DNA of 44,315 nt, taken from the NCBI RefSeq assembly GCF_003149025.1, contig NZ_QGDV01000020.1, positions 1 to 44,315 on the forward strand, given 5' to 3'. This document shows, piece after piece, positions 2,159-35,957 of the stretch; the stretch's first letter is position 1; the number at the start of each line of letters is the position of its first letter. This DNA is from Rathayibacter iranicus NCPPB 2253 = VKM Ac-1602. Its GTDB lineage: Bacteria > Actinomycetota > Actinomycetes > Actinomycetales > Microbacteriaceae. The position numbers were made by a program, and so were the translations under genes. Under the pieces are notes generated by a model. The model did no database searches. It was not told the DNA's origin and worked only from the letters and a program-made list of their open reading frames with translations.

Positions 2159-2167
2159 TCTATGCAT
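2159..2167 (-). promoter_or_regulatory. CATAGA motif, leaderless promoter for the 67-aa gene
   Basis: On the minus strand TGCATAGA is followed by AGGGTT and then the ATG at 2152: 6 nt between hexamer and start codon. The bases before the hexamer differ slightly from the usual GCG. Confidence 0.55.
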
Positions 2168-2201
2168 CCACGCCCGCGCGGATGCACTAGTGGTGACCCG
2201 A

Positions 2202-2210
2202 GCGCATTGG
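2202..2210 (+). promoter_or_regulatory. Degenerate GCGCATAGA motif
   Basis: GCGCATTGG lies 7 nt before the ATG at 2218. It differs from the consensus at two positions and precedes a broken gene, so it may be a decayed copy of the element promoter. It would form a divergent pair with the motif at 2159-2167. Confidence 0.3.
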
Positions 2211-2217
2211 TGAGGGT

Positions 2218-2470
2218 ATGACCGACTTGATTCAGACCCGATCCAGCCTCATCACGGTGACCGAGTTCGAGCTCGCAGGCGCCCTCGACACTGATTAGGC
2301 GATGCCGTCCGGCTCCTGCTCCTTCGACGACGCCGCGACCGCTCATCGCCTACGGCGACCACCACCTTCACATCGACGTCGATGACCTCGACCTGCTCGA
2401 GACACTGATCGTCGCGATGAAGACCCACCGTGACGCTCTCCGCCCGACCCCGACGAAGCGGTCGTCATGA
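2218..2470 (+). pseudogene. Broken small gene (frameshift near 2298)
   Basis: ATG 2218 opens a 26-codon frame (MTDLIQTRSS... ending LAGALDTD) that stops at 2296-2298. The next frame continues with a sensible protein segment (LIAYGDHHLHIDVDDLDLLE, then a Lys/Arg-containing helix) up to a TGA at 2468-2470, but has no start of its own. That TGA overlaps the ATG of the next broken gene (ATGA), as is usual between intact genes here. Joined, the two parts would give a protein of about 84 aa. I infer one ancestral small gene split by a frameshift; a sequencing error is equally possible. No family recognised. Confidence 0.4.
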
Positions 2471-3037
2471 CCCTCCGGACGGGACGTCCCCGACGTGCCG
2501 TCGAGCGGACGTCCGTACCCGCGCCCACTGTTGGGAGGAGCGCCCGAGGTTGGGACGAGGAATTCGTCTGGGGCGAGAACGTCACCCCGGCGTAGCTCGA
2601 CATCATCGTCAGCTTTGGCGACGACCAGATGCGCGCCCGCGCCGCCGCCGCGCCGAACATCAGCCAGTCGCAGCTGCTCGCGCTCAGCCGGATCGGGGGT
2701 GAGGAGACAGCTTTCGCGATCGCGTCCGGCACTGCCCTGCGGGACCCGGGTGAGTTCGTGCTCCTGGCCATCCACCGTTCCCGGGCCGTGCGCCGAGCCG
2801 TGCGGCAAAACCCCGAACACGAAGGCCAGCAGTGCCAGCAAACTCGTCGCTCGCCGCTCTGCCGCCCGCGCAAACAAGCACAGCCGCCGCGCCGCCCGCG
2901 CGCTCGCCCGGGAGGCGGAGGCGATGCCCACCCGCGACACCGCTGCGGCCGGGCCGCAGCGGACCGGTGAGACGCCCGCGATTGAGCCGGACACGGGCCG
3001 ATCGCTGACCCGCCGGGATCTGCGCGGGCGGCACTGA
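2467..3037 (+). pseudogene. Broken gene resembling LRV-repeat proteins
   Basis: ATG 2467 opens a frame that ends at an in-frame TAG (2593-2595) after 42 codons. The same frame continues straight afterwards (LDIIVSFGDDQMRARAAAAP) to a segment ending VRRAVRQNP. At the run AAAACCCC (2807-2814) the coherent protein moves to another frame, reading NTKASSASKLVARRSAARAN and onwards to a TGA at 3035-3037. The joined text VRRAVRQ-NPNT...L...AARAN follows the periodicity of leucine-rich-repeat-variant (LRV) proteins. So one stop and one frameshift interrupt a protein of about 190 aa. It could be real decay or base-calling errors at the homopolymers. Confidence 0.42.
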
Positions 3038-3054
3038 CACCGGTGCATCCCTGC

Positions 3055-3063
3055 GCGCATAGA
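3055..3063 (+). promoter_or_regulatory. GCGCATAGA promoter for the 3070 gene
   Basis: GCGCATAGA then CCGGGC then ATG 3070: exact 6-nt spacing. A TGACAC 17 nt upstream of the hexamer is a possible -35, but this is not conserved among the copies. Confidence 0.6.
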
Positions 3064-3069
3064 CCGGGC

Positions 3070-3222
3070 ATGGAACTCGACACCGCGTTCACCCCCGTTA
3101 ACCTCAACGCGCGCGAGCGGGAGGAAAGCACCAACGCCGTCTGCGGCACCCTCCGGTGCGTCCTGCTCGTCGGCTTCGTCGTCCGTTGCATGGCTTTCGT
3201 CCAGGCGGCGATTCGCTCTTGA
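3070..3222 (+). CDS. Small protein with hydrophobic C-terminal half (50 aa)
   Basis: 50 aa: a polar N-terminal half (MELDTAFTPVNLNARERE) and a hydrophobic, Cys-containing segment (CVLLVGFVVRCMAFV) that could be a short membrane helix. The evidence that it is real is the perfect CATAGA-N6-ATG arrangement upstream and the overlap of its stop with the next small frame (TTGA at 3219-3222). No family recognised. It heads the operon containing the RusA-like gene. Confidence 0.45.
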   Translation: MELDTAFTPVNLNAREREESTNAVCGTLRCVLLVGFVVRCMAFVQAAIRS

Positions 3223-3317
3223 GCACCGCCGCCATCGAAGGACCGATGCGAGGCGGCCCCGTCGAGTGGGCGTCGGCTCTTCCTTTGGCCTTGACGATCC
3301 TGCTCGGGTTCGCCTGA
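3219..3317 (+). CDS. Tiny membrane-type ORF (32 aa), TTG start
   Basis: TTG 3219 overlaps the preceding stop (TTGA), and its own TGA (3315-3317) overlaps the ATG of the resolvase gene (TGATG). The product of about 32 aa ends in one hydrophobic stretch (WASALPLALTILLGFA). The perfect tail-to-head packing suggests it is translated, at least to carry ribosomes to the resolvase start. The TTG start and very short length keep confidence low. Confidence 0.3.
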   Translation: MSTAAIEGPMRGGPVEWASALPLALTILLGFA

Positions 3318-4486
3318 TGCCCGCGGCGCCCGGCTTGCCGGTGATCTGGTTCACCGTTCACGGGCTCCCGGGCCCGCAGGGGTCCAAACGGCACGTCGGC
3401 GGCGGGCGTCTCATTGAGTCGTCCACAAAGGTGAAACCGTGGCGCGCCGCGGTGGAGGCGGCCGCCCGTGAAGCGCAGGGCGACGGGTGGACTCCCGTGG
3501 ACGGTGCGCTGCACCTCGTGGTCGAGTTCTACATGCCCCGGCCGAAAGGCCACCCGAGGACGCGCCGCACGGTCCCGTCGACGACGCCGGACCTGTCCAA
3601 GCTCATCCGCGCCACCGAGGACGCGCTGACTACGGCCGGCACCTATGTCGACGACGCCCGCATCGTCGACCACACTCTCCGCGAGAGGTACGCGACCGAG
3701 CAGGAGAGCATCCGGCTCGCCCACGAGATGCGCACCACCGGCGCCAAGATCGCCCTCTACCGCGTGGACGTCCCCACCACGATGACGGAGCGACCTCTCA
3801 TCGACTTCGGCGACTACCTCGACCAGACTCGCCGCCTCGTCGCCGACCACGACAACCCGCCAGTCACCACCCTCGAACGCGTCGGCGTCACCGTGCGCAG
3901 CGGCGCCATGATGCCCGCTCTCGCCGAGCTCGCCGACGCGAGGTTCACAGTAGCGGTGGGCAGCGAGGCCGTGACCTGCGCCCTCACTGACGCCGAGGCG
4001 GCCGACACCCTGCACCGTTGGGCGACAGGCGATTGCAACTACCTGCCGCCGAACCGCTCGACGACCGAGCTGCCGCCGACACCGGCCGTGTTCGACGAGG
4101 TGCGCCGACTCCTCCGCCCGGGCCACCCTGTGCTGATCCCCGTGGAGCCGGGTATCGCCTCCACCCTCCTTGACGTCGCCGCCCGTCTCGCCGGCCTCCG
4201 GGACGCCCGCTTCCACGACCGGTCTGGCACCCTTACCTTCATCGCACGGACGCCCGGGCCCGCCGGCGAGCCGACGACCGCGGTCCATCCGAGCATCGCC
4301 CTGGACGAAACCGGTGACGGGGAGGTGCTAATCCCTTGGACCGGCGACGGGCAGAGCGTCATCGACGCGGCCACCCGGGGCCGGCAGGTCGTCGCGCTCG
4401 GGGCCAGCGCAGCAGTCGTCGCGGCCATCGACCACGCCCTCAGCCGCCTCCCGGCCAGTGCCACCTCACCGGTGCCGGGCGCATAG
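3317..4486 (+). CDS. RusA-like Holliday junction resolvase with extra C-terminal domain
   Basis: 389 aa. Residues 1-150 match RusA-type crossover junction endonucleases, which cut Holliday junctions with metal-bound aspartates: an early GxQGSKRH, then PDLSKLIRATEDAL (residues 91-104) and YVDDARIVD (D112, D113). The usual pattern is D-x-D-K-L; here the second acidic residue is Ser94 while D92 remains. After residue 155 there is a second region of about 235 aa that RusA proteins (about 120-150 aa) lack and that I cannot assign. ATG 3317 is chosen for the TGATG overlap with the 32-aa ORF. The last codons GCA TAG form part of the next gene's promoter. Confidence 0.72.
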   Translation: MPAAPGLPVIWFTVHGLPGPQGSKRHVGGGRLIESSTKVKPWRAAVEAAAREAQGDGWTPVDGALHLVVEFYMPRPKGHPRTRRTVPSTTPDLSKLIRATEDALTTAGTYVDDARIVDHTLRERYATEQESIRLAHEMRTTGAKIALYRVDVPTTMTERPLIDFGDYLDQTRRLVADHDNPPVTTLERVGVTVRSGAMMPALAELADARFTVAVGSEAVTCALTDAEAADTLHRWATGDCNYLPPNRSTTELPPTPAVFDEVRRLLRPGHPVLIPVEPGIASTLLDVAARLAGLRDARFHDRSGTLTFIARTPGPAGEPTTAVHPSIALDETGDGEVLIPWTGDGQSVIDAATRGRQVVALGASAAVVAAIDHALSRLPASATSPVPGA

Positions 4487-4487
4487 A
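4479..4487 (+). promoter_or_regulatory. GCGCATAGA promoter for the 4494 gene
   Basis: GCGCATAGA, CCGGCC, ATG 4494: exact 6-nt spacing. The stop TAG of the resolvase gene (4484-4486) lies inside the motif. The upstream GCCACCTC is shared with the copy at 4941. Confidence 0.62.
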
Positions 4488-4493
4488 CCGGCC

Positions 4494-4901
4494 ATGACCA
4501 CTGCCAAGCGCATCTCCAAGATCCTCGAACCGCATGGATTCATGCAGCATCAGGAACCCGGCTTCGTCGGGTGGCACCGCACCCACGAAGACGGGCGGAG
4601 ACAGGTGCTGCACGTCTTCTTCTGGTCGAACCCGAAGTACGCTGCAGGCGTAGGCATCCCACACGCCTACATCGTTGTCGTCCCCACGATCGACGCGAAG
4701 ACGGTCCCGGGCGACGATAGGTGCGCCCGCCACGAAGACGGGCGGTTCATCATCCCCACCATCGACAGGGAGGGCCAGAGAATCGCCTGGGACGTGGCCG
4801 GGACTCAATTCCAGAACATTGTTTCGCCGCTCTTTGACGCTCCCGTAGAGATCGGGCGCGCGCTCGTGAGAGAGGCCATCACCACGAACCTATTGACGTG
4901 A
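4494..4901 (+). CDS. Unknown protein (135 aa), leaderless
   Basis: 135 aa, soluble, mixed alpha/beta, starting MTTAKRISKILEPHGF with a central segment HVFFWSNPKYAAGVGI. No family recognised. ATG 4494 is preferred to an in-frame ATG at 4458 because it sits 6 nt after the CATAGA hexamer and the upstream part overlaps the resolvase gene. It is a single-gene unit, followed by an inverted repeat at 4905-4921. Confidence 0.6.
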   Translation: MTTAKRISKILEPHGFMQHQEPGFVGWHRTHEDGRRQVLHVFFWSNPKYAAGVGIPHAYIVVVPTIDAKTVPGDDRCARHEDGRFIIPTIDREGQRIAWDVAGTQFQNIVSPLFDAPVEIGRALVREAITTNLLT

Positions 4902-4904
4902 TCA

Positions 4905-4921: not shown

Positions 4922-4940
4922 GCCACCTCGCCGGGATGAG

Positions 4941-4949
4941 GCGCATAGA
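4941..4949 (+). promoter_or_regulatory. GCGCATAGA promoter for the dNMP kinase operon
   Basis: GCGCATAGA, CCGGCC, ATG 4956. From hexamer to start codon it is identical to the copy at 4479. Confidence 0.62.
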
Positions 4950-4955
4950 CCGGCC

Positions 4956-7188: not shown

Positions 7189-7197
7189 GCGCATAGA
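7189..7197 (+). promoter_or_regulatory. GCGCATAGA promoter for sbcDC
   Basis: GCGCATAGA, GGGTAC, ATG 7204: exact 6-nt spacing, no Shine-Dalgarno. Confidence 0.6.
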
Positions 7198-11591: not shown

Positions 11592-11600
11592 GCTATGCGC
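11592..11600 (-). promoter_or_regulatory. GCGCATAGC motif before the GNAT gene
   Basis: Minus-strand GCGCATAGC, 31 nt before GTG 11560. The TAG stop of the 63-aa gene lies inside it. The spacing predicts a short leader rather than a leaderless mRNA. Confidence 0.4.
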
Positions 11601-14095: not shown

Positions 14096-14104
14096 TCTAT
14101 GCGC
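14096..14104 (-). promoter_or_regulatory. GCGCATAGA promoter for the helicase
   Basis: Minus-strand GCGCATAGA, CGCTGC, ATG 14089: exact 6-nt spacing. It forms a divergent pair with the copy at 14148. Confidence 0.62.
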
Positions 14105-14147: not shown

Positions 14148-14156
14148 GCGCATAGA
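14148..14156 (+). promoter_or_regulatory. GCGCATAGA motif with a leader, before the 14203 gene
   Basis: 46 nt separate the hexamer from ATG 14203. The leader has a GCGCGC-CC-GCGCGC hairpin (14169-14182) and a CGGAG ribosome-binding site, so this copy drives a conventional mRNA. Confidence 0.5.
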
Positions 14157-19894: not shown

Positions 19895-19903
19895 TCTATG
19901 CGC
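19895..19903 (-). promoter_or_regulatory. GCGCATAGA promoter for the ParA-like operon
   Basis: Minus-strand GCGCATAGA, CGCGCC, GTG 19888: exact 6-nt spacing even with a GTG start. Divergent from the copy at 19958. Confidence 0.62.
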
Positions 19904-19957: not shown

Positions 19958-19966
19958 GCGCATAGC
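19958..19966 (+). promoter_or_regulatory. GCGCATAGC promoter for the primase-helicase
   Basis: GCGCATAGC, GGGGGAC, ATG 19974: 7-nt spacing and C in the last hexamer position. Confidence 0.52.
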
Positions 19967-22900: not shown

Positions 22901-23048
22901 CGCACGGACGGAGCAGATCTCGACCGTTCGCGTGGGGTTGACGAACCCGAAGAGCGGGCGGGCGCAGTACCTACGCGGCGTTCCTGTCCTCCTGTCCGCC
23001 CTGCTCGACGAGCAGCCGACCGCGGCGGAGGCCGGCACCGTCACGTAG
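19974..23048 (+). CDS. Replication primase-helicase (TOPRIM/DUF3854-like plus P-loop ATPase)
   Basis: 1,024 aa. Residues 110-300 look like a TOPRIM/DUF3854 module: LMTEGAIKGDSAL (E-G near 152), ALVAFDGDTTTNW (D-x-D near 235) and KLGIDDYLA near 286. Residues 560-760 are a P-loop ATPase (YGPPRAGKTF, 582-591; IWVADDLAP near 632-640; MPTALLVMTAENEP). This pairing is typical of primase-helicase or initiator proteins of actinobacterial plasmids and phages, so it probably starts or drives replication of this element. The start follows the CATAGC motif by 7 nt. A strong terminator lies just downstream at 23060. Confidence 0.68.
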   Translation: MTSRPTRTPWNSADYSPVVTGSGAIKLADSGVAPLVAIARGYSSMDDKDGARTIAQRSSDTTGTSIIRRLNQMVVEDEDALVIPWFRATDVTERGPDAKSRTLQMRPSRPLRNKSGKTAKYEFLSGEGTTLDLNPATPGEWINGSFTILMTEGAIKGDSALTGQLRAAGITDEQLSQVPPSAAQARAILSTLMTAVPQDQRVTILSFAGVANWRDQPDWRSIKLQDRRALVAFDGDTTTNWQVWRQARALFEFIEYKHGTPYLLNLGSPEAELAKIHVPGMADAKLGIDDYLARVGDWAEVLSYAQPDLPQQPERPDEVLYAIGDMRVRPTEPTIVEEFTQETAGDGTKMPPSWVRRVGIGGRLRSMESRRRPHPSEIDSGVIDHTFDAELGDSTCTIDLSWKDANGATQTGVVSGPANLLAHNVADWPRHGAIMPNPLLALPEWPPKKGIEWLSAIKANHAEDVAQLNSWAVMGWVPGEHGNAAFIVGNQVLARTRDEEANTIPGVTDRVLGGASSFGVIDRYHELDDVEAWKSEICKDMRTVLETYIESGAWKERSAAVTAVAGMYRPTLPVRPSVTIYIYGPPRAGKTFTAVHMMGAWQSSVGTWTIGNLPGAAGDTAAAMEYSIARSPIWVADDLAPTVDKRQAEQQEAAVGNIIRAVHNGSGRRKMDGRTNTQREQSMPTALLVMTAENEPQVASIRERIVAISTPKDMFSNGDAVAKVDALNATDGAPARLTAALIRFWLNDEDNIYGTAWPERLRALKDSVRSLAAFGQTVLLEEHGMSAGEAARHAAIAADLAITFEVLRELALWAGFDPEDPLIDKLGRGPGSYMQELFAQAAKTIERQRESTPGAMLVQTLTKLMASGRAHIGNTHAVGQPPYPVNPVDGDDAAAIAASVNSALGWTKDSQDAWVPKGLKIGHFGMTASGRTPVVVFEHTTAFNEAQKFYPGRILHGANPTAAWSSVWSEGLCAEYARTEQISTVRVGLTNPKSGRAQYLRGVPVLLSALLDEQPTAAEAGTVT

Positions 23049-23110: not shown

Positions 23111-23119
23111 GCGCATAGA
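23111..23119 (+). promoter_or_regulatory. GCGCATAGA promoter for dnaE
   Basis: GCGCATAGA, CCGTTC, ATG 23126: exact 6-nt spacing, just after a terminator. Confidence 0.65.
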
Positions 23120-23125: not shown

Positions 23126-26100
23126 ATGACCGACGCTGCCTCCCCGTCACGCTACGTGTCGTTGCACACCCACTCGGAGCACAGCGAACTCGACTCCCTC
23201 GCGAAGATCTCGGACCTGTTCGCGCGGACGGCCGCGCTCGGCCAGCCGGCGCTCGCGATCACCGACCACGGCACGCTCGGCGGTCTGTGGAAAGCGCAGA
23301 ACGCGGCGGACCTGCACGGCGTGAAGCTCATTCCCGGCATCGAGGCGTACCTCGCTATCGGCGACCGTTTCCAGCACAACCAGGTCGAACTCGCCGACGG
23401 CGAACTCGCGGACGACAGCGATGACAGCGCCGACGCTGATGACGAGGCGGGGGGCCTCGACGAGAACGGGGAGCCGAAACCGGCCAAGTCCAGGACCAAG
23501 ACCAAGAAGTACGAGCACCTGACGCTCCTCGCCGTCTCCGAGACCGGCTGGCGGAACCTCGTCCGCATCAACAACGCGGCACAGAAGACGAAATGGGGCA
23601 AATACGCCCGCATCGACTACGCCCTCGTGAAGCAGCACGCCGAAGGTGTCGTCATCCTTTCCGGCTGTCTCGGGGGGCCGATCCTCGGACCGCTGTCCCG
23701 CGGTGACTACTCGCAGGCGGAGGCGAATCTGCTCAAGATGATTGCCACCGTTGGTCGCGAGAACGTGTACGTCGAGGTGATGGAGCACGGCATCGAGTCG
23801 GAGTCGGCCCTTCTCCACCTTGCCGTGCAGCTCGCGCAGGAGCACGACATCCCACTCGTCGCCACGAACGACTCCCACCACACGCACGCCCACGATGCCG
23901 ACGCCCACGACGCCTGGCTGGCCGTGTCGACGAAGGCGCTCGTCTCCGACCAGAAGCGCTACCGCTTCTCCGGCACCGGCTACCACCACCGCAGCGAGGA
24001 GGAGATGCTCGATCTCCGTCCCGAGGCATGGTGGGCTGAGGCTGTCACGAACACCATGCTGGTCGCCGACCGAGTCGACGACCGGGTCCTCCCGCGCCCC
24101 GCGCCGAAGCTGCCAGCGTTCCCGACACCGGACGGCTTCTCGGACAACCTCCACTACTACCATCACCTCGTCACGCAGGGCGCGATCTCCCGGTACGGCG
24201 ACTTGACTCTCCGGCCGGACGTGCGCGCGCGCTTGAACGAGGAGCTCGCGATCATCCGCGACGCCGGGTTCATCGACTACTTCCTCATCGTCCATGACAT
24301 CGTCGCGTGGGCTCGCGCGAACAGCATCCTCGTAGGTCCCGGCCGCGGTTCCGGCGCCGGCTCCATCACCGCGTACTGCCTCGGCATCACGGGACTGTGC
24401 CCGCTGGAGAACAGCCTTCTTTTCGAGCGGTTCCTCGAGCCCGGGCGGCCGGACTTCCCGGACTTCGACGTCGACTTCGAGGCGCTCCGCCGCGCGGACA
24501 TCCTGGACTACCTGCAGCGCAAGTGGGGATCGCACTGCGTGGCTCTCATCGGAGCTTTCGGATCGGCGAAGACGAAGCAGGCGTTGAAGTCGGCCGCTCG
24601 AGTACTCGAAGCAGGCAGTGTCGGCGACAAGCTCGCGAAGGTGGTACCTATCGCTGGCGGCAACCCGTTCACCTTCGCCCAGCTCGAGGACCTCACCCTC
24701 GGCGAGGCCGACCCGTTCCGGGACCAACTGGCCAAGCTGGGGGAGAAAGGTGAGGAGGTCGTTGCTCTCGCCCGCCAATTCGCCGGCACCGTGTCCGGGG
24801 TCAGCATCCACGCGTGCGGCGTCATCGTCTCCGACCTCGACCTCACCGACCTCATCCCGCTGCGCATCGACAGCAAGACCGGCCGGTGGGTCTCCCAGTG
24901 GGACTCGAAAGACGCGGAAGCGTTTGGGCTCCTGAAGCTCGACATCCTGTCGCTGCGGAACCTCGACATCGCCCACCAGGCGATCACCTTCATCTACGAG
25001 CAGACCGGGGAGCAGCTCGACTTCGACCGGATGCCGCACCCGAACACGCAGGGCGACCCTCGTGTCGACGCGGCGTTCAGGACGATCCGGGAAGGACGAA
25101 CCTCAGGCCTGTTCCAGCTGGAGAGCCCGAAGATGACCGAGCTCGCTCAGGACGTCGGCCCGACCAACCTCCGTGACCTCTCCGCTCTCGTCGCGCTCTT
25201 TCGCCCCGGGCCCCTGTCCGCAGGCATGGATCAGCACTACGCACGCCGGAAGAACGGCCGTGAAGCCGTCGACTACAGCATCTTCACGAGTGACCCCAAC
25301 GAGCAGGCGGTGATCGCCTCCGTGCTCGGGGAAACGTTGGGTTCTCTCGTTTTTCAGGAGCAGCTCATGTCTCTGGGGCGCGTGATGGCCGGTTTCGACG
25401 TCGATGCCCGCGGGCTCCTGCGCCGCGCCGTCGGCAAGAAGGACAAGGTGAAAATGGCCAAGGTCGGCCAGATGTTCATCGCCGGCTGTGTGCAGGACTT
25501 CCGCGACCCGATCACCGGAAAGATCACGTCACCTGCGATGAGTGAGCGCACCGCCCTCGTCATGTGGGAGGCGATGAAGGGTTCCGGCGAGTACCTCTTC
25601 AACGCCTCCCACTCGGCCGCGTACGCGCAACTCGCGTACATCACCGCCTACCTGAAGGCGAACTGGCCAGCCGCGTACGGAGCCGCGATCCTCGCCGTGA
25701 CCGAGAAGCCGGAAAAGCGTCAGCAGGCGCTTCGGTCCCTGCCCGAGGAAGGCATCGAGGTTCTCGCCCCGGACGTCAACCGCTCCGGCGCGCATTCCCG
25801 CCCAGAAGGCCCGACGAGTGTGCGGCTGGGGCTGAAAGAGATCAAGGGCGTCGGCGACAGCGGAGAGCGCATCGCGCGCGTGCGCGAGGAGTCCGGCAAG
25901 CCGTTCACCTCCCTCGCCGACGTCGCCAACCGTGTCCGCCAGGGCGGGAGCGCCGCCGACGGGAGCGACAGCCTGAAGTACCTGCCGACGAACCACCTCG
26001 AAGGTCTCGTCGAAGCGGGCGCGCTAGACGAATTCGGACCTCGCATGGGTCAGCACGCGACCGCGCGCATCGCAAAGACTGGCAACGACATCGTGCCACC

Positions 26101-26971
26101 GCCCATCGAATGGGGCTACCTCGAACGCTCCGCGAGACAGCGTCAGCGCCTGCTCGTCAGCCTCGGCACGCACCCCCTCATCCAGCTGCACGACGAGGTG
26201 TCCGCGTGGCGCCACCACCGTGAGGCGGGCGGTCGATCGTTCCACATGCGCGCGTCCGCCGTCGAAGAGGTCCCGAACGAGGACGGCGCGTCTGTCACCG
26301 TGCTCGGGCTCCTCGGACGGTACGCGGAAAAGCCGTACCGCGGCGGTCAGATGGCCGGCCTCACCATCGAGGGCCCGCGAGCGAGCGTCGAAGCGGTCAT
26401 GTGGAACGACACGGTCGAGGCGACCAAGATGGCCGGCACGATGCCTAACATCGGCGGCGTCCTCGCCGTCAGCGCGCGAGTGAAGATCCGGGTATTCGAG
26501 TCGGAGGACGACGAAGACAACGTCGTCGAAACGACCGAGCATCAGCTGCAGGTGAACCAGGTGTATCCCGTCCCGGTGCATGACCCGGTGCAGGGTCACC
26601 TCCCGCCGACCGACATCCCGAGGATTGCGTTCGCCACCGTGCCCCGGCCGCAGGCATCGCGCACGACGGCGGCGAAGGCGCCCGCACCCGTTCCGGCGCA
26701 GGCGCAGCCTGCGCCGGAGCCCTCCCCATTGCCTGTCGTCGACTCGAGCCTGCGCGTGCTCGTCGCCCGCCCTTACGACGGGAGTACCGACATCGTCCGG
26801 CGCAACGGGCTGATGCCGACGTCGAAGCTCGCGCAGCGGGTGCTCGCGTTCACCGGCACTCAGCCGACCTTGAACACCTGGCCGTCGGAGCACGGCACCT
26901 CGTTCGCCGTCGTCGACACGGACCTCATCACGACGTTGGCCGTCATCGAGGTGGCCGCGGAAACTGGGTGA
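23126..26971 (+). CDS. dnaE: DNA polymerase III alpha subunit (DnaE-type)
   Basis: 1,281 aa family C polymerase. N-terminal PHP domain: HTHSEHSELD, AITDHG, IEAYL and VATNDSHHTH. The palm has FPDFDVDF with D448 and D450, and the third aspartate D606 in LLKLDILSLRNLDI; fingers show RRAVGKKDK and FNASHSAAYAQLAYITAYLK. After residue 1,000 come helix-hairpin-helix and OB-fold-like regions and a Pro-rich linker with an unrecognised C-terminal domain. The acidic insert near residues 90-125 (DDSDDSADADDE) is unusual. ATG 23126 is set by CATAGA. It replaces or supplements host polymerase on this element. Confidence 0.93.
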   Translation: MTDAASPSRYVSLHTHSEHSELDSLAKISDLFARTAALGQPALAITDHGTLGGLWKAQNAADLHGVKLIPGIEAYLAIGDRFQHNQVELADGELADDSDDSADADDEAGGLDENGEPKPAKSRTKTKKYEHLTLLAVSETGWRNLVRINNAAQKTKWGKYARIDYALVKQHAEGVVILSGCLGGPILGPLSRGDYSQAEANLLKMIATVGRENVYVEVMEHGIESESALLHLAVQLAQEHDIPLVATNDSHHTHAHDADAHDAWLAVSTKALVSDQKRYRFSGTGYHHRSEEEMLDLRPEAWWAEAVTNTMLVADRVDDRVLPRPAPKLPAFPTPDGFSDNLHYYHHLVTQGAISRYGDLTLRPDVRARLNEELAIIRDAGFIDYFLIVHDIVAWARANSILVGPGRGSGAGSITAYCLGITGLCPLENSLLFERFLEPGRPDFPDFDVDFEALRRADILDYLQRKWGSHCVALIGAFGSAKTKQALKSAARVLEAGSVGDKLAKVVPIAGGNPFTFAQLEDLTLGEADPFRDQLAKLGEKGEEVVALARQFAGTVSGVSIHACGVIVSDLDLTDLIPLRIDSKTGRWVSQWDSKDAEAFGLLKLDILSLRNLDIAHQAITFIYEQTGEQLDFDRMPHPNTQGDPRVDAAFRTIREGRTSGLFQLESPKMTELAQDVGPTNLRDLSALVALFRPGPLSAGMDQHYARRKNGREAVDYSIFTSDPNEQAVIASVLGETLGSLVFQEQLMSLGRVMAGFDVDARGLLRRAVGKKDKVKMAKVGQMFIAGCVQDFRDPITGKITSPAMSERTALVMWEAMKGSGEYLFNASHSAAYAQLAYITAYLKANWPAAYGAAILAVTEKPEKRQQALRSLPEEGIEVLAPDVNRSGAHSRPEGPTSVRLGLKEIKGVGDSGERIARVREESGKPFTSLADVANRVRQGGSAADGSDSLKYLPTNHLEGLVEAGALDEFGPRMGQHATARIAKTGNDIVPPPIEWGYLERSARQRQRLLVSLGTHPLIQLHDEVSAWRHHREAGGRSFHMRASAVEEVPNEDGASVTVLGLLGRYAEKPYRGGQMAGLTIEGPRASVEAVMWNDTVEATKMAGTMPNIGGVLAVSARVKIRVFESEDDEDNVVETTEHQLQVNQVYPVPVHDPVQGHLPPTDIPRIAFATVPRPQASRTTAAKAPAPVPAQAQPAPEPSPLPVVDSSLRVLVARPYDGSTDIVRRNGLMPTSKLAQRVLAFTGTQPTLNTWPSEHGTSFAVVDTDLITTLAVIEVAAETG

Positions 26972-26990: not shown

Positions 26991-26999
26991 ACGTACATG
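26991..26999 (+). promoter_or_regulatory. TACATG promoter variant, KTSF-domain gene
   Basis: ACGTACATG, CGGAGC, ATG 27006: the hexamer TACATG is exactly 6 nt from the start codon, in the place CATAGA takes elsewhere. Confidence 0.45.
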
Positions 27000-28083: not shown

Positions 28084-28092
28084 GCGCATAGA
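28084..28092 (+). promoter_or_regulatory. GCGCATAGA motif with a leader, Orn-like exonuclease
   Basis: The hexamer is 56 nt from GTG 28149. An out-of-frame ATG lies 4 nt after it (28097), so a short upstream ORF is possible. Confidence 0.45.
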
Positions 28093-28148: not shown

Positions 28149-29027
28149 GTGACCTTGCAGAAGCCGCTCGCGCTCATTCACCTGGACTTCGAAGGAGTCA
28201 GCCTCGACTCCGACTCCGAGCTCTGGGAGGTCGGCGTCATCGCCACCGATGAGGAGTACACCGAGCTCGACGCGTTCGAGATGCTATTCGACCCCAGCCT
28301 GGACGGCATCCGTGTGGTCGAAGCGAACCCGACGGTACTTGCCATGCACACAGCGTCCGGTCTGCTCGACGACGTCCGAAACCCGTCCCTACCCAAGCAC
28401 ACCGTCCGTGACGCCGAGGACCGTATCCTCGAGATGATCGCGCGTTTCGAAGGCGCCCACGACATCGCCCTCGCCGGAAGCGGCGTCGGCCACTTCGACC
28501 GCCGGGTCGTCGCCGCTCAGATGCCGCGATTTGCCGCGCGCCTCACCTACTGGTCCGACGACGTCGGCGTGCAGGTCCGTGCGTACAAGCGGGCGACGAA
28601 GCTAGACATCCTCCCGCCACTTCCCGCGAAACCGCACCGGGCCATGCCCGACATCCGTGACCACCTCCGCCACGCTCGCGCGTTCCGGGAGGTGTACCTC
28701 GCCACGGCCGTTCCTGCCGACGAGAACGCGCTGGAACGCGCTTTGACCGGCCTCGCCGTCCTCGAGGCGTTCAGCTCCCACGACGTGTTCATCCAAGGCC
28801 GAGCGCAGGTGTTCACGCCCGAGACGGCCGAGGACATGCACGCGCTCCTGCGGACGACGAGCCACCAGAGCATCATCTTCGGTCTCGTCGACGTCGCGGC
28901 CACGCTCCTCAGCCAGGTCGCCGACGTAACAGGCCATCGCGAATCTACGGTGATCGCGCGTCTGCGCGGCACCGTCATCGACTCTCTCGCCAGCGCCACT
29001 GACAGCTCGCCAACGGACCGCGCATAG
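28149..29027 (+). CDS. Oligoribonuclease-like DEDDh exonuclease
   Basis: 292 aa. The N-terminal 190 residues match the oligoribonuclease/epsilon fold: HLDFEGVSLD (D-x-E) followed by LWEVGVIAT, GSGVGHFDRRVV (Exo II) and HRAMPDIRDHL (H-x4-D). Orn degrades 2-5-nt RNA or DNA to mononucleotides. The last 90 residues, helical, are not part of Orn (about 180-200 aa) and are unassigned. Start GTG 28149 lies behind a leader with CGAGAG as weak ribosome-binding site. Its terminal GCA TAG is inside the ssb promoter motif. Confidence 0.7.
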   Translation: MTLQKPLALIHLDFEGVSLDSDSELWEVGVIATDEEYTELDAFEMLFDPSLDGIRVVEANPTVLAMHTASGLLDDVRNPSLPKHTVRDAEDRILEMIARFEGAHDIALAGSGVGHFDRRVVAAQMPRFAARLTYWSDDVGVQVRAYKRATKLDILPPLPAKPHRAMPDIRDHLRHARAFREVYLATAVPADENALERALTGLAVLEAFSSHDVFIQGRAQVFTPETAEDMHALLRTTSHQSIIFGLVDVAATLLSQVADVTGHRESTVIARLRGTVIDSLASATDSSPTDRA

Positions 29028-29028
29028 A
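29020..29028 (+). promoter_or_regulatory. GCGCATAGA promoter for ssb
   Basis: Overlaps the exonuclease stop (TAG 29025-29027). The hexamer is 96 nt upstream of ATG 29125, so transcripts have a long leader. Confidence 0.55.
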
Positions 29029-30780: not shown

Positions 30781-31211
30781 ACGTTGTCGACACCCTGCTG
30801 ACCTGGGTCAGCCGGAACCCGGTACCCGCTCTGCTTCTGCCAGGCGTCGTCGTGCTGCTCGCGATCGTCGCTCGAGCTTCGCGAGGCAGCGCGTCCACCG
30901 ACCCGCAACGCGCCTTCACCGGTCCGCAGCGAACGACCGGGTTCGCTCGTGCTGACGGCAGGTGCGAGTTCGACGGCGCACTGTTCTTCCTCCGTTGCTC
31001 CCGCAACGCCCACCACGCGGACCACTTCTACCCGTGGTCGAAGGGCGGTGCCACGTCGATGCAGAACCTCGTCGCCGCCTGCGCCGCATGCAATCTCTCT
31101 AAAGGTCCGAAGATGCTCAGCGCCTTCTACCGCAAACGCATCGAACGTCGTCGGCGGAAGTACTTCACCGTGCGCATGAACCGCCTCGTCGGGGAATGGT
31201 ACGGACGCTGA
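30774..31211 (+). CDS. HNH endonuclease-like membrane protein, start uncertain
   Basis: About 145 aa if read from CTG 30774, or 119 aa from GTG 30852. The HNH domain is clear: CEFDGALFFLRC, ADHFYPWSKGG and LVAACAACNLSKG, giving two Cys pairs and the H-N-H metal site of beta-beta-alpha nucleases. Before it is a hydrophobic stretch (PALLLPGVVVLLAIVA) that looks like a membrane helix and would be cut by a GTG 30852 start. No ATG, GTG or TTG precedes it nearby in frame, so initiation at CTG or from the 54-aa gene is suspected. Its stop overlaps the next ATG (TGATG). Confidence 0.6.
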   Translation: MLDVVDTLLTWVSRNPVPALLLPGVVVLLAIVARASRGSASTDPQRAFTGPQRTTGFARADGRCEFDGALFFLRCSRNAHHADHFYPWSKGGATSMQNLVAACAACNLSKGPKMLSAFYRKRIERRRRKYFTVRMNRLVGEWYGR

Positions 31212-33130
31212 TGGCCGAGACCCCGAAGCTCCCCGAGAGCTCCCCGAAGATCCAGGCGCGTCCGAAACTGCGTGTGGACAGCCCGAAGCCGACTGGGCAG
31301 CCCTCTCTCACCGGCATCGCTCGCGGTATCGCGCAGCAGCGGTCGACGCCGGAACCCGAGACGAAAGTCGCCGCGGTGAAAGGCGTCGTCGGCGACATCG
31401 TCAAAGGTGCGGGGAAGGGCGCCGCCCAGTCGGCCGTTGCCGGTGCCGCCAGCGGCGGCACGGCGCTCGTGGCAGGGTCGGTGAAAGGCGCGGTCACGGC
31501 GCTTGTCAAGAACAGGACTGCCCGCCGCTGGATCATCGGCGCCGTCGTCTTCCTCGTCGTGACACTCGTCGCTATCCCGCTGTTCATCGCCACGACGGTC
31601 ATCTCCAGCATCGGGATGCTCGTCGACTCGAACAACGAGATCTCCGCCACCGCCGTGGAAGAGTCCGGCGTCGATCGGGAGACCGTCTACGACTTCATCA
31701 CCGGCACGAGCCGCGGTGAGGTGCCCTGGCAGGTAACTCTCGCAGTCAGCCAGAAGAAGAACGTGCCGTTGGACACCGACAAGCTCGTCGCCGAGGTTCG
31801 CAAAACCGACCCCAACCGGGAATTCCGCGACCTCGGAATCGGAACTGTCTTCAACGTCAGTGACAGCAACCGCACTGTTGGAACGAGCGACGCACACAAG
31901 GCAGCGGCGAAAGGCGTGAAAGACATGTACGTCGCGGCGCTGACCGCGTACGGGCTCAGCTCAGCGGAAGCCGGGCAGGTGTTCGACCAGGCGCTGAAGT
32001 GGTTCCTCGGCCAGGGGACGCTCACCTGTACCCCGGGCGGTGGCACGTCGACTCTGGGGGGCTCGGGAGCTCCTGGTGGGACCAATGTCGGCGAGTGGGC
32101 GTTCGACACCGAGCAGATGACCAACACCATCACCATCGTCGGCGTCGCCAAGTCCACGTTCGCGTCCGAATCGGACCAGAGACGAGCGGCGATCATCGCC
32201 GTCGCGACCGCGTACCAGGAATCCGGGATGCGCCGCATCGACTACGGCGACACGGCCGGTCCGGACAGCCGCGGATTGTTCCAGCAGCGCAAAGCGGGCT
32301 GGGGCTCGCTGGCCCTGCGGATGAGCGCGGACGGTGCCGCGGCAACGTTCCTCGGACGACTCGCCGGCGTCGCCGGCTGGCAGACAATGGTCCTCTCCGA
32401 AGCGGCCATCAACGTGCAGATCTACCAGGACGGGCTGCGGCCGCACTACGACAAGCACGAGCAGGCCGCGACCGCGTTCGTCAACGCGAACTTCGCCACA
32501 GCCCAAGTCGTCCCCATCCCCGCCGAGTCGACCCTAATCACCGGAGTCGGCAACGGCGGAGTGCCAGGCACACCCGGCACGACCCCCAGCACCGCCCCCG
32601 GCACGACCGGTAGCTGCGGCGGCGGCGGTTCCGGTCCCGGCATCGTCGGCGGATGGACGAGCCCCATCGCCATCGGCACTGCAGGCCTGAGCTACGTGGA
32701 CTTCTACGGGCCCCGCTTCGGGGTGCCCGGCGCTCGACCTTTCCATTACGGAATCGACCTCGCCGTCCCGATGAACACGCCGATCGTCGCTGTCGCGGGC
32801 GGGACTGTCGTCGAAGCCCAGCACTCCGGCTCGGGTGGCCTCGGCAACACGATCACCATCGAGCACGGCGACGGCTCCCACTCGCAGTACAACCACCTGA
32901 ACGTCGGCGGGGTCCTCGTCAACGTCGGCGACACCGTCACCGCCGGGCAGCACATCGGGAACTCCGGGATGACCGGTCTCGCCTACGGTCCGCACCTCGA
33001 CTTCCGCACCTTCGCTGGCGCCGTCGGCGACGCTTTCGGTCAGGACCCGATTTACTTCCTCCTCGCCAAGGGAATAGACCTTCGCGTCATCCCTGTCGGC
33101 AGCGACCTGTCCACCACCCCAACGTTCTGA
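31211..33130 (+). CDS. Bifunctional wall hydrolase: transglycosylase-like plus M23 peptidase
   Basis: 639 aa. A basic Pro/Ala-rich cytoplasmic part (1-105) precedes one transmembrane helix (RRWIIGAVVFLVVTLVAIPL). Residues 300-430 resemble VirB1/lysozyme-like transglycosylases (AYQESGMRRIDYGD, DSRGLFQQR, INVQIYQDGL). Residues 480-639 are an M23 peptidase: FHYGIDLAVP (H-x3-D), QYNHLN and GPHLDF. The last motif normally reads H-x-H; here the second ligand is Asp. Such two-domain hydrolases open peptidoglycan for type IV secretion channels in Gram-positive conjugative elements. ATG 31211 overlaps the preceding TGA. Confidence 0.8.
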   Translation: MAETPKLPESSPKIQARPKLRVDSPKPTGQPSLTGIARGIAQQRSTPEPETKVAAVKGVVGDIVKGAGKGAAQSAVAGAASGGTALVAGSVKGAVTALVKNRTARRWIIGAVVFLVVTLVAIPLFIATTVISSIGMLVDSNNEISATAVEESGVDRETVYDFITGTSRGEVPWQVTLAVSQKKNVPLDTDKLVAEVRKTDPNREFRDLGIGTVFNVSDSNRTVGTSDAHKAAAKGVKDMYVAALTAYGLSSAEAGQVFDQALKWFLGQGTLTCTPGGGTSTLGGSGAPGGTNVGEWAFDTEQMTNTITIVGVAKSTFASESDQRRAAIIAVATAYQESGMRRIDYGDTAGPDSRGLFQQRKAGWGSLALRMSADGAAATFLGRLAGVAGWQTMVLSEAAINVQIYQDGLRPHYDKHEQAATAFVNANFATAQVVPIPAESTLITGVGNGGVPGTPGTTPSTAPGTTGSCGGGGSGPGIVGGWTSPIAIGTAGLSYVDFYGPRFGVPGARPFHYGIDLAVPMNTPIVAVAGGTVVEAQHSGSGGLGNTITIEHGDGSHSQYNHLNVGGVLVNVGDTVTAGQHIGNSGMTGLAYGPHLDFRTFAGAVGDAFGQDPIYFLLAKGIDLRVIPVGSDLSTTPTF

Positions 33131-33797: not shown

Positions 33798-33821
33798 CCG
33801 TCCGCAACGCGTGCGCAGGCC

Positions 33822-33830
33822 GCGCATAGA
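33822..33830 (+). promoter_or_regulatory. GCGCATAGA promoter for the 33837 gene
   Basis: GCGCATAGA, CGGTCC, ATG 33837: exact 6-nt spacing. Confidence 0.62.
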
Positions 33831-33836
33831 CGGTCC

Positions 33837-34031
33837 ATGAACCCTGACGAACCTACGCTCCGTGAGACTCGGCTCGCCCGCCTCGGCTGGCTCCTCGTGG
33901 CTGTCGGTGCCGCCCTCGAGGTATTGCGCACTGTGCTCAACGACACCAGCCTCAACAGCCTCCTCGGCATGGCTGTCGTATCGACCGTCGCCGGTGTCGC
34001 CGCTCTTCTGCGCGCGGGACGTCACCTCTGA
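33837..34031 (+). CDS. Small two-helix membrane protein (64 aa)
   Basis: 64 aa: a charged N terminus (MNPDEPTLRETRLARL), then two hydrophobic segments (GWLLVAVGAALEVL; LGMAVVSTVAGVAALL) with a short polar turn, and a basic end. No family recognised. ATG 33837 is fixed by the CATAGA-N6 arrangement; the stop overlaps the next start (TGATG). It is leaderless and heads a two-gene unit. Confidence 0.58.
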   Translation: MNPDEPTLRETRLARLGWLLVAVGAALEVLRTVLNDTSLNSLLGMAVVSTVAGVAALLRAGRHL

Positions 34032-34633
34032 TGGCAGCACCGAAGCGGAAAGCTGACCGTCGCATCGTTCACATCCGGGACGCCCCCTCAGCCGTGCAGG
34101 CGGTCAACCTCGCGCTGCAAATCCTGAAGAATTCCGGCACCAACACCTGGCGGGACCTCGCCCGGCGTCCAGACGCCCATGAGCACATCATCCTCACCGA
34201 CGCGCAGCAGACTCTCCTCGACGAGCACATGGACGTGCTCCCGTACCTCAGCATCAAGCCGATGAGGACGATCTTCGCCTGCCGGGTCTGCGGCCGGTTC
34301 GCCTTTGCTGACGTGGCACCACCACCCGCACGCTGCACGATCACACTGGGCTGCGGAGGGCCGGTTGTGAAGGCGTCCGCCGTCGGGCCGAGAGCGACGA
34401 CTGTGCAGAAGGTCCTGCCGCCTGTCCTGCGGGCACCGGCGCCGTCAGATCCGATCGAACGGTCCGCCGAGCCCGTCACCGCCCCACCGCCCGCGCTGAG
34501 CGGCGAGCTTGCATACGTCACCCCGATCCAGCCGCCGCCTGTCGATGAGTCCTTCCCTGACCTCGACCGCGTGGACGTAATTCCGGATCGATTAACGGCC
34601 CACCACCACGTCCCGCCCGAGCGCACCTTCTGA
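34031..34633 (+). CDS. Zinc-ribbon-like protein (200 aa)
   Basis: 200 aa. A basic N terminus, then a helical region (AVQAVNLALQILKNSGTNTW), and near residues 84-113 a Cys set ACRVCG ... ARCTITLGCGG, which could bind zinc. The C-terminal third is Pro-rich and probably disordered. No catalytic motif is seen. Translationally coupled to the small membrane protein upstream. Role unknown; a nucleic-acid or protein adaptor is possible. Confidence 0.55.
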   Translation: MAAPKRKADRRIVHIRDAPSAVQAVNLALQILKNSGTNTWRDLARRPDAHEHIILTDAQQTLLDEHMDVLPYLSIKPMRTIFACRVCGRFAFADVAPPPARCTITLGCGGPVVKASAVGPRATTVQKVLPPVLRAPAPSDPIERSAEPVTAPPPALSGELAYVTPIQPPPVDESFPDLDRVDVIPDRLTAHHHVPPERTF

Positions 34634-34641
34634 GTGCCGCC

Positions 34642-34650
34642 GCTTACATC
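34642..34650 (+). promoter_or_regulatory. TACATC promoter variant, secreted nuclease gene
   Basis: CGCTTACATC, CCGGAC, ATG 34657: the hexamer TACATC is exactly 6 nt before the start codon. Confidence 0.42.
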
Positions 34651-34656
34651 CCGGAC

Positions 34657-35481
34657 ATGCGTACCTTCTTCAGACGTCTCGCCGTCGTCATCGTCGTGCT
34701 CGGACTCTTCTGTGGCTTCATCATCCAGCAGGGCAATTGGGATTCCGCGATCGTCACCCCAATCCGAGTGGCGCTCGGCGACGACACCGCGGACAACGTC
34801 GACGGATTCGGGCGCGCGTCACAACACGCCACCGACTCAGTCACCGACTTCGGTGACGACATCGCGGACGGCCTCGCCTCAGGTAGCAGAGGCGAGGGCG
34901 GAGGTGACGTCACCACCGCCAGCCAAGACGCTGCGGCGTACCTCGCCGCCCTCGAGACGCTGACGATCACGCCACAGATCCGGATCCCCATCTACGACCG
35001 GGCGAAGTTCGGCACCCCATGGGCGGACACGGACAAGAACGGTTGCGATAGCCGAAACGACATCCTCCACCGTGACCTCACCAACATCGTCTTCACCGCC
35101 GGCAATGACTGCAAGGTCGCCACCGGCACGCTCGCCGACCCCTACACCGGGAAGACGATCGAGTTCGTCCGCGGCGTGAAGACGAGCTCGGCAGTGCAGA
35201 TTGACCACATTGTGCCTCTGCTCAAAGCGTGGCAGTCGGGAGCCTGGAACTGGACCAACGAGCAGCGCCTCACCTACGCGAACGACCCGGTGGTCCTCCT
35301 CGCTGCAGACGGCCCCGCCAACGGCGCCAAGGGCGGCAAGGGCCCGTCCGAGTGGATGCCCTCCAACGCCGCCGATGCCTGCCACTACGTCGAATCGACG
35401 GTGACGGTGCTCACCAAGTACCAGCTCACGGTCTCCACAGCCGACAAGGCGAAGATCCAGGAGGTCCTTGCCGGCTGCTGA
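34657..35481 (+). CDS. Secreted DUF1524 (HNH-type) nuclease
   Basis: 274 aa. A signal-anchor (LAVVIVVLGLFCGFII, residues 8-23) leads to an acidic linker (to about 90) and then a DUF1524 domain: DKNGCDSRNDILHRDL, QIDHIVPLLKAW with the catalytic D-H, NEQRLTYANDPVVLLA, and EWMPSNAADACHYV. These enzymes are mostly secreted metal-dependent nucleases in actinobacteria. Paired Cys in the domain may form disulphides, fitting an extracellular place. Beside conjugation-type genes it may degrade foreign or free DNA, or process DNA at the surface. Confidence 0.8.
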   Translation: MRTFFRRLAVVIVVLGLFCGFIIQQGNWDSAIVTPIRVALGDDTADNVDGFGRASQHATDSVTDFGDDIADGLASGSRGEGGGDVTTASQDAAAYLAALETLTITPQIRIPIYDRAKFGTPWADTDKNGCDSRNDILHRDLTNIVFTAGNDCKVATGTLADPYTGKTIEFVRGVKTSSAVQIDHIVPLLKAWQSGAWNWTNEQRLTYANDPVVLLAADGPANGAKGGKGPSEWMPSNAADACHYVESTVTVLTKYQLTVSTADKAKIQEVLAGC

Positions 35482-35488
35482 CGCCGCC

Positions 35489-35497
35489 GCGCATAGA
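35489..35497 (+). promoter_or_regulatory. GCGCATAGA promoter for the 35505 gene
   Basis: GCGCATAGA, GGCCGGG, GTG 35505: 7-nt spacing, 8 nt after the previous stop. Confidence 0.5.
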
Positions 35498-35504
35498 GGC
35501 CGGG

Positions 35505-35957
35505 GTGACGTCCCTCCTGAATCTCGAAGCGCTCGACACGCTCATGACAATCCCGACGATCGCGCTGACCATCGTCTACTGCGCCGCCTCGATTTGCCGG
35601 GTACTGGCCGTGCCCGGAAGCGCCCAACGGTACCGGGCTGCGACCGTCCAACGCGGGGCACTGATGATGGTTGTCTGCGCCGACCTGCTGAACCTGATCG
35701 TCGAGGCCGCCACGGGCGACCACATGGGAGCGGCCGCATTCGTCGGAGCGGCCGTCTGGCTGATCGTCTTCGGCTGGCGCATCCTCGACGGCTCCAGGAA
35801 CCGGACCATCGTGCAGCGCCTCCGCGAGGAGCGGACCCTCACGGACGCCGCTGCCAGCGCCGACGGCGAGGAGCCTTGCAGCGGCGCCGAACCCCTGCAC
35901 ACCGCCCATGTCGCGCTCATCCGGCTTCCGCCAATCGCGCCACATGCGACCGCATGA
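35505..35957 (+). CDS. Three-helix membrane protein (150 aa)
   Basis: 150 aa. GTG 35505, leaderless after GCGCATAGA. Three hydrophobic segments (MTIPTIALTIVYCAASICRVLAV broken as residues 14-36; GALMMVVCADLLNLIVEA; AAAFVGAAVWLIVFGW) and a cytoplasmic tail with charged residues. No family recognised. Its stop overlaps the SNF2 helicase ATG (ATGA), so the helicase is translated from the same mRNA. Confidence 0.6.
   Translation: MTSLLNLEALDTLMTIPTIALTIVYCAASICRVLAVPGSAQRYRAATVQRGALMMVVCADLLNLIVEAATGDHMGAAAFVGAAVWLIVFGWRILDGSRNRTIVQRLREERTLTDAAASADGEEPCSGAEPLHTAHVALIRLPPIAPHATA

Follow-up and report, generated by a model that had tools for sequence, protein, structure and literature searches.

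Contig C20 of Rathayibacter iranicus NCPPB 2253 (44,315 bases, referred to here as the window, in a genome of 3.38 Mb and 49 contigs) carries a short sequence, GCG followed by CATAGA or CATAGC, that stands repeatedly a few nucleotides before start codons. This raises the question of what the sequence does, what kind of replicon it belongs to and which protein reads it. The initial annotation of the window proposed an element-wide leaderless promoter. Our analysis suggests that a group of related, very large plasmids of actinobacteria has a bipartite promoter of its own in which the motif forms the -10 part, with a sigma-like protein encoded on the element as its likeliest reader, an explanation that, judged from sequence comparison, we regard as probable though far from assured. 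We distinguish class A, built on CATAGA, from class B, CGTACAT followed by seven nucleotides and a start codon, which is also present in the window and was missed in the initial annotation.

Twelve exact copies of GCGCATAGA occur in the window against 0.2 expected, with no more than three in any of 200 Markov shuffles, and CATAG[AC]-N6-RTG occurs 10 times against 0.2 expected (at most two in the shuffles). The copies listed in the initial annotation, comprising these 12, two of GCGCATAGC and one CATAGA preceded by TG, are all in place and co-oriented with genes. Re-measuring also bore out its distances, exactly six nucleotides to the start codon in nine of the 15 copies and variants and seven before the starts at 19974 and 35505. 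The statement that all copies point into a gene holds for most of them; at the predicted start following the minus-strand copy at 11592 there is only an open reading frame (ORF) of 18 codons. Gene calls on contigs and plasmids were made with a simple script of our own, and ORFs shorter than 35 codons at a motif start were left out of the counts (for class B, one site of our element, with a 12-codon ORF).

Set against the host chromosome, a comparison proposed in the initial annotation, the motif proves to be enriched on contigs C19, C20 and C24 and at background level on the others. The 29 genomic copies of GCGCATAGA fall 12 on C20, six on C19, one on C24 and 10 on all other contigs together (14 in a backward-read control). 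GCGCATAGA-N6-RTG is found 11 times, and the 10 sites listed are all on C19 or C20 (control 0), and CATAGA-N6-ATG is found 15 times, 12 of them on the three contigs. An unbiased count of hexamers 6-7 nucleotides before ATG or GTG on C19, C20 and C24 (120 kb) ranks CATAGA first, with 17 of its 32 copies at starts (P 2e-13), and the start association of GCATAGA reaches P 5e-16; the best start k-mer on the host's other contigs reaches P 7e-6 in 200 kb, made up of ten 20-kb stretches each chosen for holding a GCGCATAGA copy. The shorter CGCATAG has 34 copies on the three contigs. Nineteen abut a start, and two of these have a Shine-Dalgarno match of at least four nucleotides; the initial annotation had noted that its genes at these distances lack one. 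The start does not adjoin in the remaining 15: seven lie within 250 nucleotides upstream of a called gene, at distances of 30-122 (three with a Shine-Dalgarno match), seven in other intergenic DNA and one within a gene, and the backward control has three copies, none at starts. Among 396 genomes of the order, the R. iranicus genome has the highest count of CGCATAG-N7-ATG (13 against two backward). Because of this concentration we assign the motif to an element that most likely comprises at least C19, C20 and C24.

The nature of that element is indicated by its proteins. In a set of 72,556 plasmids, the 1024-amino-acid protein at 19974-23048 and the 366-amino-acid protein at 38217-39317 each find matches in eight records, which are the same for both. 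These plasmids measure 375-608 kb, come from Pseudarthrobacter, Paenarthrobacter, Arthrobacter and Curtobacterium, are circular in the records opened, and include the dnaE-bearing circular plasmids pACHL01, pYJN5-1, D40, pCPAA3 and one of A. caoxuetaonis. Protein identity between the window, itself a 44 kb contig, and these homologues is 27-36%. On pACHL01, pYJN5-1 and the A. caoxuetaonis plasmid, as in the window, one neighbourhood holds dnaE, SSB, a cell-wall peptidase, an SNF2 or DEAD/DEAH helicase and the sigma-like gene. In sharing replication genes and the sigma-like gene, similarly arranged, the window fits the large plasmids of the pACHL01 kind, and the contig is most likely a piece of a very large actinobacterial plasmid. 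A phage origin was considered and rejected: window positions 15000-39000 gave no megablast match in 50,697 phage records, and the sigma-like protein has no relative in phage records (tblastn) or viral contigs. Since two of its proteins also match the eight plasmids, the element is of a large-plasmid type and, as far as tested, not a phage.

The start-associated motifs recur on these relatives. Searched over their full length, the three Curtobacterium plasmids have 29, 53 and 50 copies of CGCATAG-N7-ATG and the others two to four (controls 0). For CGYRYACAT-N7-ATG, the five Micrococcaceae plasmids give 80, 57, 74, 72 and 68 copies and those of Curtobacterium 23, 28 and 30, with backward controls of 0 except for a single site on one plasmid (W02). 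The class A backward control is not clean on D40, where it gives 39 sites, five of them at gap 7. Other start-associated sequences were seen as well: CGCATGTT stands seven nucleotides before ATG in seven of its 27 copies on pACHL01, TTTCCAT is start-associated there in 11 of 29 copies, and CCGCATCT precedes three D40 genes in the annotated stretch.

The initial annotation stated that no -35 is shared by the motif copies. This proved wrong: a second conserved block, C-A-n-C-T-C, lies 12 nucleotides before CGCATAG. At positions 18 to 13 before CGCATAG, the bases C, A, C, T and C are found in 16, 15, 18, 11 and 12 of the 19 start-type sites, and 12 of these sites match at least four of the five positions (P 8e-16). 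The block is also present at the same spacing in five of the 15 non-abutting sites (P 1.5e-5), which had no part in defining it. pACHL01 has a block of its own, CGGnGA, placed 16 nucleotides before its motif at 71 of the 95 start-type sites and at 46 of the 62 remaining ones (P 1e-54). The block-to-(-10) spacing is 14 nucleotides to CATAGA in our element and about 19-20 on pACHL01. Class A in our element would accordingly be written CAnCTC-N12-CGCATAG[A]. The description of the hexamer as a poor match to TANNNT stands, as CATAGA, TACATG and CACATG all fail it, with the T missing at one or both ends. The -10 element lies 6-7 nucleotides before the start codon, as it does in canonical actinobacterial leaderless promoters.

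The distance to the start codon is sharply defined. On 367 kb of pACHL01, the gap from CG[CT]ACACAT to ATG is seven nucleotides in 80 cases and eight in nine, and any other distance from 0 to 15 is found at most six times. Among the 130 sites in 280 kb of this plasmid, 79 are at starts, 7-8 nucleotides away (one with a Shine-Dalgarno match), 43 are within 250 nucleotides upstream of a gene (30 with a Shine-Dalgarno match, and 31 at 30-51 nucleotides), six are in other intergenic DNA and two inside genes; the backward pattern gives one site, and 179 of the 367 genes called on the same 280 kb have a Shine-Dalgarno match. Deposited starts in four annotated stretches (n=164) have GCATAG at 7-8 nucleotides in 11 cases and [CT]ACAT in 16, so the placement does not depend on our own gene calls alone. 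No separate conserved -10 is visible between motif and start codon in the aligned sites. Since a -10 element together with the upstream block explains leaderless and leadered genes alike, the motif is better read as a promoter than as a translation signal, and that it is a promoter element appears near certain from the sequence patterns. The initial proposal is upheld in this respect by the fixed geometry, the rarity on the host's other contigs, the scarcity of Shine-Dalgarno sequences and the same layout on eight plasmids. It needs amending in that the upstream block is shared after all and that the signal is not restricted to leaderless genes, because promoters of the same kind also precede pACHL01 genes with an ordinary leader and a Shine-Dalgarno sequence. 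At start-type sites we infer that the 5′ end of the mRNA lies on the start codon.

The host-type TANNNT was also considered as the leaderless box of the element. It shows a modest excess six nucleotides before ATG on stretches of the R. iranicus chromosome (12 against 3-11 at other distances), a count of 31 against 3-16 on D40, and no clear excess on pACHL01. It was rejected in this role. Given its excess on D40, that plasmid may also use host-type leaderless promoters.

Class B is associated with a particular kind of protein. On C19, C20 and C24, CGTACAT is the best start-associated heptamer unrelated to CATAGA, with eight of 19 copies at starts (P 5e-6), which by itself is no stronger than the best heptamer of the host stretches (P 7e-6). 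Our element has seven start-type class B sites whose ORF reaches 35 codons or more, and the proteins behind all seven bear a short N-terminal tag (five HPRG, one TRGQPQNAGSF and one GGGGQF), and none of the 19 class A proteins has such a tag in its first 30 residues, as inspected by eye. Likewise, the eight HPRG-tag genes on C20, C19, C24, C21 and the end of C8 all have CGTACAT-N7-start, one of them with a CTG start; one further HPRG match on C13 was left out, as it begins no gene of the tag kind. For the tag gene at 12090 of C24 (L004), the spacing of class B suggests CTG as the start codon. Class B is also found on C21 and the end of C8, and these may belong to the same element. On D40 the pattern [GNA]GxF occurs within the first 40 residues of 19 of 29 class B proteins against six of 103 class A proteins, and on the stretches of another carrier of the motif, genome G212, in two of nine and none of five, respectively; pACHL01, which has class B as its general promoter, gives nine of 92. 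The tag forms HPRGHxxNAGxF and RVPxGVPxGGQFAAT recur on otherwise different plasmid proteins, and the sigma-like protein is tagged too. Four tag strings were found printed in no paper in a full-text literature search that mostly lacked subscription papers. We tentatively suggest that in our element and in D40 class B is largely reserved for proteins with an N-terminal tag, the sigma-like protein included.

The candidate reader is the 366-amino-acid protein encoded at 38217-39317, which is annotated as a hypothetical protein on seven annotated plasmid records. A profile of 13 relatives searched against PDB at E up to 1 gave 14 hits, 13 of them sigma factors, the best being region 2 of SigR (E 4.9e-4). 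By hhalign, which was also used to look for region 3 and the 3.2 linker, the family aligns with group-3-like sigmas over columns 58-246 (169 columns, E 1.5e-5, probability 80) and with SigA-like sigmas over 91 columns (probability 10). Sigma70_r2 matches at E up to 1 were found in five of the eight plasmid members, that of plasmid W08 reaching 23.5 bits, or 24.1 with neighbours, and Foldseek ranks 1-7 are all sigma entries (best E 0.055, TM about 0.2). As judged by the Pfam and PDB profile comparisons, the protein shares the region 2 homology of the sigma-70 family. It represents the sole sigma-like family seen on all eight plasmids and in the window, other plasmid sigmas being patchy. Its gene is preceded by CGTACAT in the window and by CGCACACAT or CGCATACAT on the three Curtobacterium plasmids; because the gene itself carries class B, it is probably autoregulated.

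Other plasmid-borne sigmas were considered as universal readers. Group-3-like sigmas occur on six and SigA-like sigmas on five of the eight relatives, and the group-3-like ones of W02, W05, W07, W06, W08 and W03 form a second plasmid sigma family with 39-80% identity. Both types were rejected in this role, as they are missing on some plasmids and give weak hits on our own contigs. pACHL01 also encodes, at 377249-380221 (L049:250-3222), a 990-amino-acid fusion of ResIII and Helicase_C with sigma regions r1.2, r2, r3 and r4 and a helicase-associated domain; it is 47% identical to a host SigA-type protein encoded on C2 over query positions 455-811, and a sigma-annotated gene of the same size lies at 45591-48560 of W04. 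This fusion, located near dnaE, was rejected as a general reader: its best match in the R. iranicus genome is the chromosomal SigA-type gene on C2, and it has no match on C19, C20 or C24. The window gene at 19974-23048 was rejected as a homologue of the fusion, since it matches a different plasmid protein.

Motif and sigma-like gene were also followed beyond these plasmids. The sigma-like protein is found at E up to 1e-5 in nine of the 396 genomes of the order, R. iranicus included. G212 was picked solely for its six GCGCATAGA-N6-RTG sites on contig C5 (control 1), and the 701 kb contig C5 proved to carry the sigma-like gene (E 4e-37), preceded by CCGCACACCTA, the class B of that contig and one of its two start k-mers. 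Among the eight other carriers, start k-mers are significant after correction for k-mer number in G653 (GCATAGG) and G521 (ACATAG), and suggestive at best in G280, G656, G240 and G605. The sigma-like gene is preceded by GCACATAG in G521, where it equals the start k-mer of the element, by CCGCACATCT in G656 (Pseudactinotalea) and by CCGCACGTAT in G688 and G421. CGYACACAT-N7-ATG occurs in 67 of the 396 genomes, in at most seven copies; seven copies lie in a 25 kb island of G764 (C1:757837-783038, L172 and L173), which is possibly an integrated plasmid fragment.

A number of observations weigh against the promoter being read by this protein. The Sigma70_r2 score of the window protein is 21.4 bits, under the 24-bit cut-off; three of the eight plasmid members have no r2 match, and none of the eight scanned has a Pfam match to region 4. 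The predicted model is of moderate confidence, with a pLDDT of 64.6, a pTM of 0.36 and a helical C-terminal half, and the Foldseek E-value is weak. The five Micrococcaceae plasmids have CGCACACAC or CGCACACAG before the sigma-like gene, one base off the consensus (CACACAC or CACACAG for CACACAT), and most relatives have the further sigmas described above. Both block spacings are unusual for sigma-70 and differ between clades. Only two of the eight other carriers have significant start k-mers, those of G688 and G421 not being clear-cut; no such motif was found before the sigma-like genes of G653, G240 and G605, and GCATAGG in G653 differs from the sequence before its sigma-like gene. G650, G456 and G402, also picked by CGCATAG counts, gave no convincing sigma-like match, the best in G402 (E 8e-5) being an ordinary ECF-type sigma by eye. 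In G764 the genome search at E up to 1e-5 gave no sigma-like match, and 80 kb of it yielded only the tag region of two proteins. With G212 carrying both motif and gene, G650, G456 and G402 giving no convincing match and G764 only tag matches, we hold the promoter to be near certain and the sigma-like protein to be its reader with somewhat better than even odds, as far as sequence can tell.

The most serious alternative is that the promoter is read by the host SigA, another host sigma or another plasmid sigma, with a lineage-specific -10 and perhaps an activator on the block, which we consider unlikely without dismissing it. The host genome has nine Sigma70_r2 genes and most relatives carry further plasmid sigmas. 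CGCATAG is constant in the three Curtobacterium plasmids, G212 and our element while what precedes the sigma-like gene is variable, which would fit class A having a conserved reader, and the G764 island has class-B-like sites with no full sigma-like gene found. Against this alternative, the motif does not rise above background on the remaining host contigs and lacks the T of TANNNT at one or both ends, and CGCATAG-N7-ATG is more frequent in the R. iranicus genome than in any other of the 396; another plasmid sigma is disfavoured by the fetched contigs of our element, which hold no canonical one (weak profile hits at E 0.001-0.02).

Alternatively, the motif might be bound at gene starts by an element-encoded regulator or nucleoid protein and not be a -10 itself. 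Its bipartite and strongly conserved form, and the Lsr2- and HU-family proteins encoded on pACHL01, would agree with this; its exact placement at -12 to -7, its asymmetry, its co-orientation with the gene and the lack of a separate -10 make it improbable. A translation signal that replaces the Shine-Dalgarno sequence in the mRNA would account for the fixed gap to the start codon and the scarce Shine-Dalgarno matches at start-type sites, yet it is harder still to reconcile with the 43 of 130 pACHL01 copies farther upstream, 30 of them before starts led by a Shine-Dalgarno sequence, and with the second block kept by non-abutting copies, and we give it very little credence. Chance or the spread of a repeat could be entertained while the few copies in the window are taken alone, or class B alone, whose association is like that of the host's best k-mer; the counts, 12 against 0.2 expected in the window and 29-80 against 0-1 in controls on eight plasmids, refute it to the point that its probability is negligible.

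In the mechanism favoured here, a sigma encoded on the element, with the protein at 38217-39317 as the best candidate, would direct RNA polymerase to these promoters. Class A at 6-7 nucleotides before a start codon would give an mRNA that begins on that codon, and class A farther upstream an mRNA with a leader. The candidate, its own gene having class B in front, might serve class B only or both classes. The two classes look alike (GCG-CATAGA and GCG-TACATG, with A at -11 and -9 and GCG before the hexamer), so one sigma with a broad taste and two readers are both possible.

Element-encoded sigma systems with a promoter code of their own are known from phages, as with T4 gp55 and SPO1 gp28. What we describe is of this known kind, combined with leaderless promoters, and is not categorically new; the plasmid-family-wide code itself was not met in the literature search, which, among the matches listed and with few subscription papers, gave none on the motifs as promoters, the transcription of the plasmid family or the tag. 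In M. tuberculosis, a quarter of genes are expressed as leaderless mRNAs, from promoters with a -10 centred 7-12 bp before the transcription start (PMC3898074). Those promoters have TANNNT and no conserved -35 (PMC3898074); ours have CATAGA, TACATG or CACATG, GCG or GCA before the hexamer and a second block, and are concentrated on one element type. Cluster K mycobacteriophages offer a likeness in their element-specific start-associated sequences, repeated just upstream of many genes, mostly in one orientation, about half of them with an upstream extension (PMC3203893). Their sequence, however, is GGGATAGGAGCCC with a Shine-Dalgarno-like core, and the part of the paper covered describes no leadered copies and no sigma link (PMC3203893); our motif does not match that core and has no Shine-Dalgarno-like core of its own. 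Phage AR9, with its late promoters AACA-N6-TA/G, resembles our case in that a mobile element has a promoter consensus of its own, found at about a hundred genes; it encodes multisubunit polymerases and has leaders of 26-491 nucleotides (PMC5312081). Our element differs in being of plasmid type and in having a sigma-like protein as candidate reader; plasmid-borne polymerase subunits were not searched for.

Features of the window (C20) discussed in the text; positions count from the first base of the window
Feature	Position	Strand	Relation to gene
CATAGA (TG instead of GCG)	2159..2164	-	6 nt before ATG 2152 (67 aa)
Class A GCGCATAGA	3055..3063	+	6 nt before ATG 3070 (50 aa)
Class A	4479..4487	+	6 nt before ATG 4494 (135 aa); block CACCTC 4462-4467
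Class A	4941..4949	+	6 nt before ATG 4956 (deoxynucleotide monophosphate kinase-like); block CACCTC 4924-4929
Class A	7189..7197	+	6 nt before ATG 7204 (calcineurin-like phosphoesterase; SbcD-like judged by neighbour)
Class A variant GCGCATAGC	11592..11600	-	6 nt before GTG with 18-codon ORF only
Class A	14096..14104	-	6 nt before ATG 14089 (UvrD-like helicase)
Class A	14148..14156	+	no adjoining start; next gene 14203
Class A	19895..19903	-	6 nt before GTG 19888 (ParA-domain protein); block CACCTC
Class A variant GCGCATAGC	19958..19966	+	7 nt before ATG 19974 (1024 aa; homologues on eight plasmids)
Class A	23111..23119	+	6 nt before ATG 23126 (DnaE)
DnaE	23126..26971	+	similar gene neighbourhood on Micrococcaceae plasmids
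Class B CGTACAT	26992..26998	+	7 nt before ATG 27006 (356 aa, N-terminal GGGGQF)
Class A	28084..28092	+	upstream of gene 28149, start not adjoining
Class A with block CAGCTC	29020..29028	+	about 97 nt upstream of SSB gene 29125 (with a Shine-Dalgarno-like AAGGGA of its own)
Class A	33822..33830	+	6 nt before ATG 33837 (64 aa)
Class A	35489..35497	+	7 nt before GTG 35505 (150 aa)
Class B CGTACAT	38203..38209	+	7 nt before ATG 38217, predicted start of the sigma-like protein
Divergent sigma-70-like protein, 366 aa, N-terminal HPRGHPNNAGSF tag	38217..39317	+	proposed promoter reader

Among the remaining content of the window, the region 3317-29676 encodes an SbcD-SbcC-like pair, a RusA-domain protein, a UvrD-like helicase, an RNase_T-type exonuclease and an N6/N4 DNA methylase, which with DnaE and SSB make a rather full replication and repair set. 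A 639-amino-acid protein at 31211-33130 has an M23 peptidase domain and 320 residues similar to a phage tape-measure family. Scans of the window for tRNA genes and Rfam families found nothing.

Plasmids are usually thought to take over the host transcription machinery wholesale, and promoter-code insulation is known for some large phages. Since relatives carrying the same sigma-like gene have close equivalents of the motif, these plasmids may read their genes with a transcription code of their own. In its widest form, which we put forward tentatively and with less conviction than the promoter mechanism itself, such replicons would be transcriptionally self-governed by a fast-diverging sigma, with a private code for a large part of the gene content of a plasmid of 0.4-0.7 Mb and the tag regulon as a separate layer; tagged proteins could then all be bound for one place, and might even be passed into a new host together with the DNA. 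If this is true, megaplasmids that each hold about a hundred promoters of their own, along with a sigma-like gene, would clearly exemplify promoter-code insulation. The motif can be used in re-annotating starts on such plasmids and may guide a search for such elements with DNA as the only input, which succeeded with G212 and failed with three other picks, and the family would offer a natural series of diverging sigma-promoter pairs.

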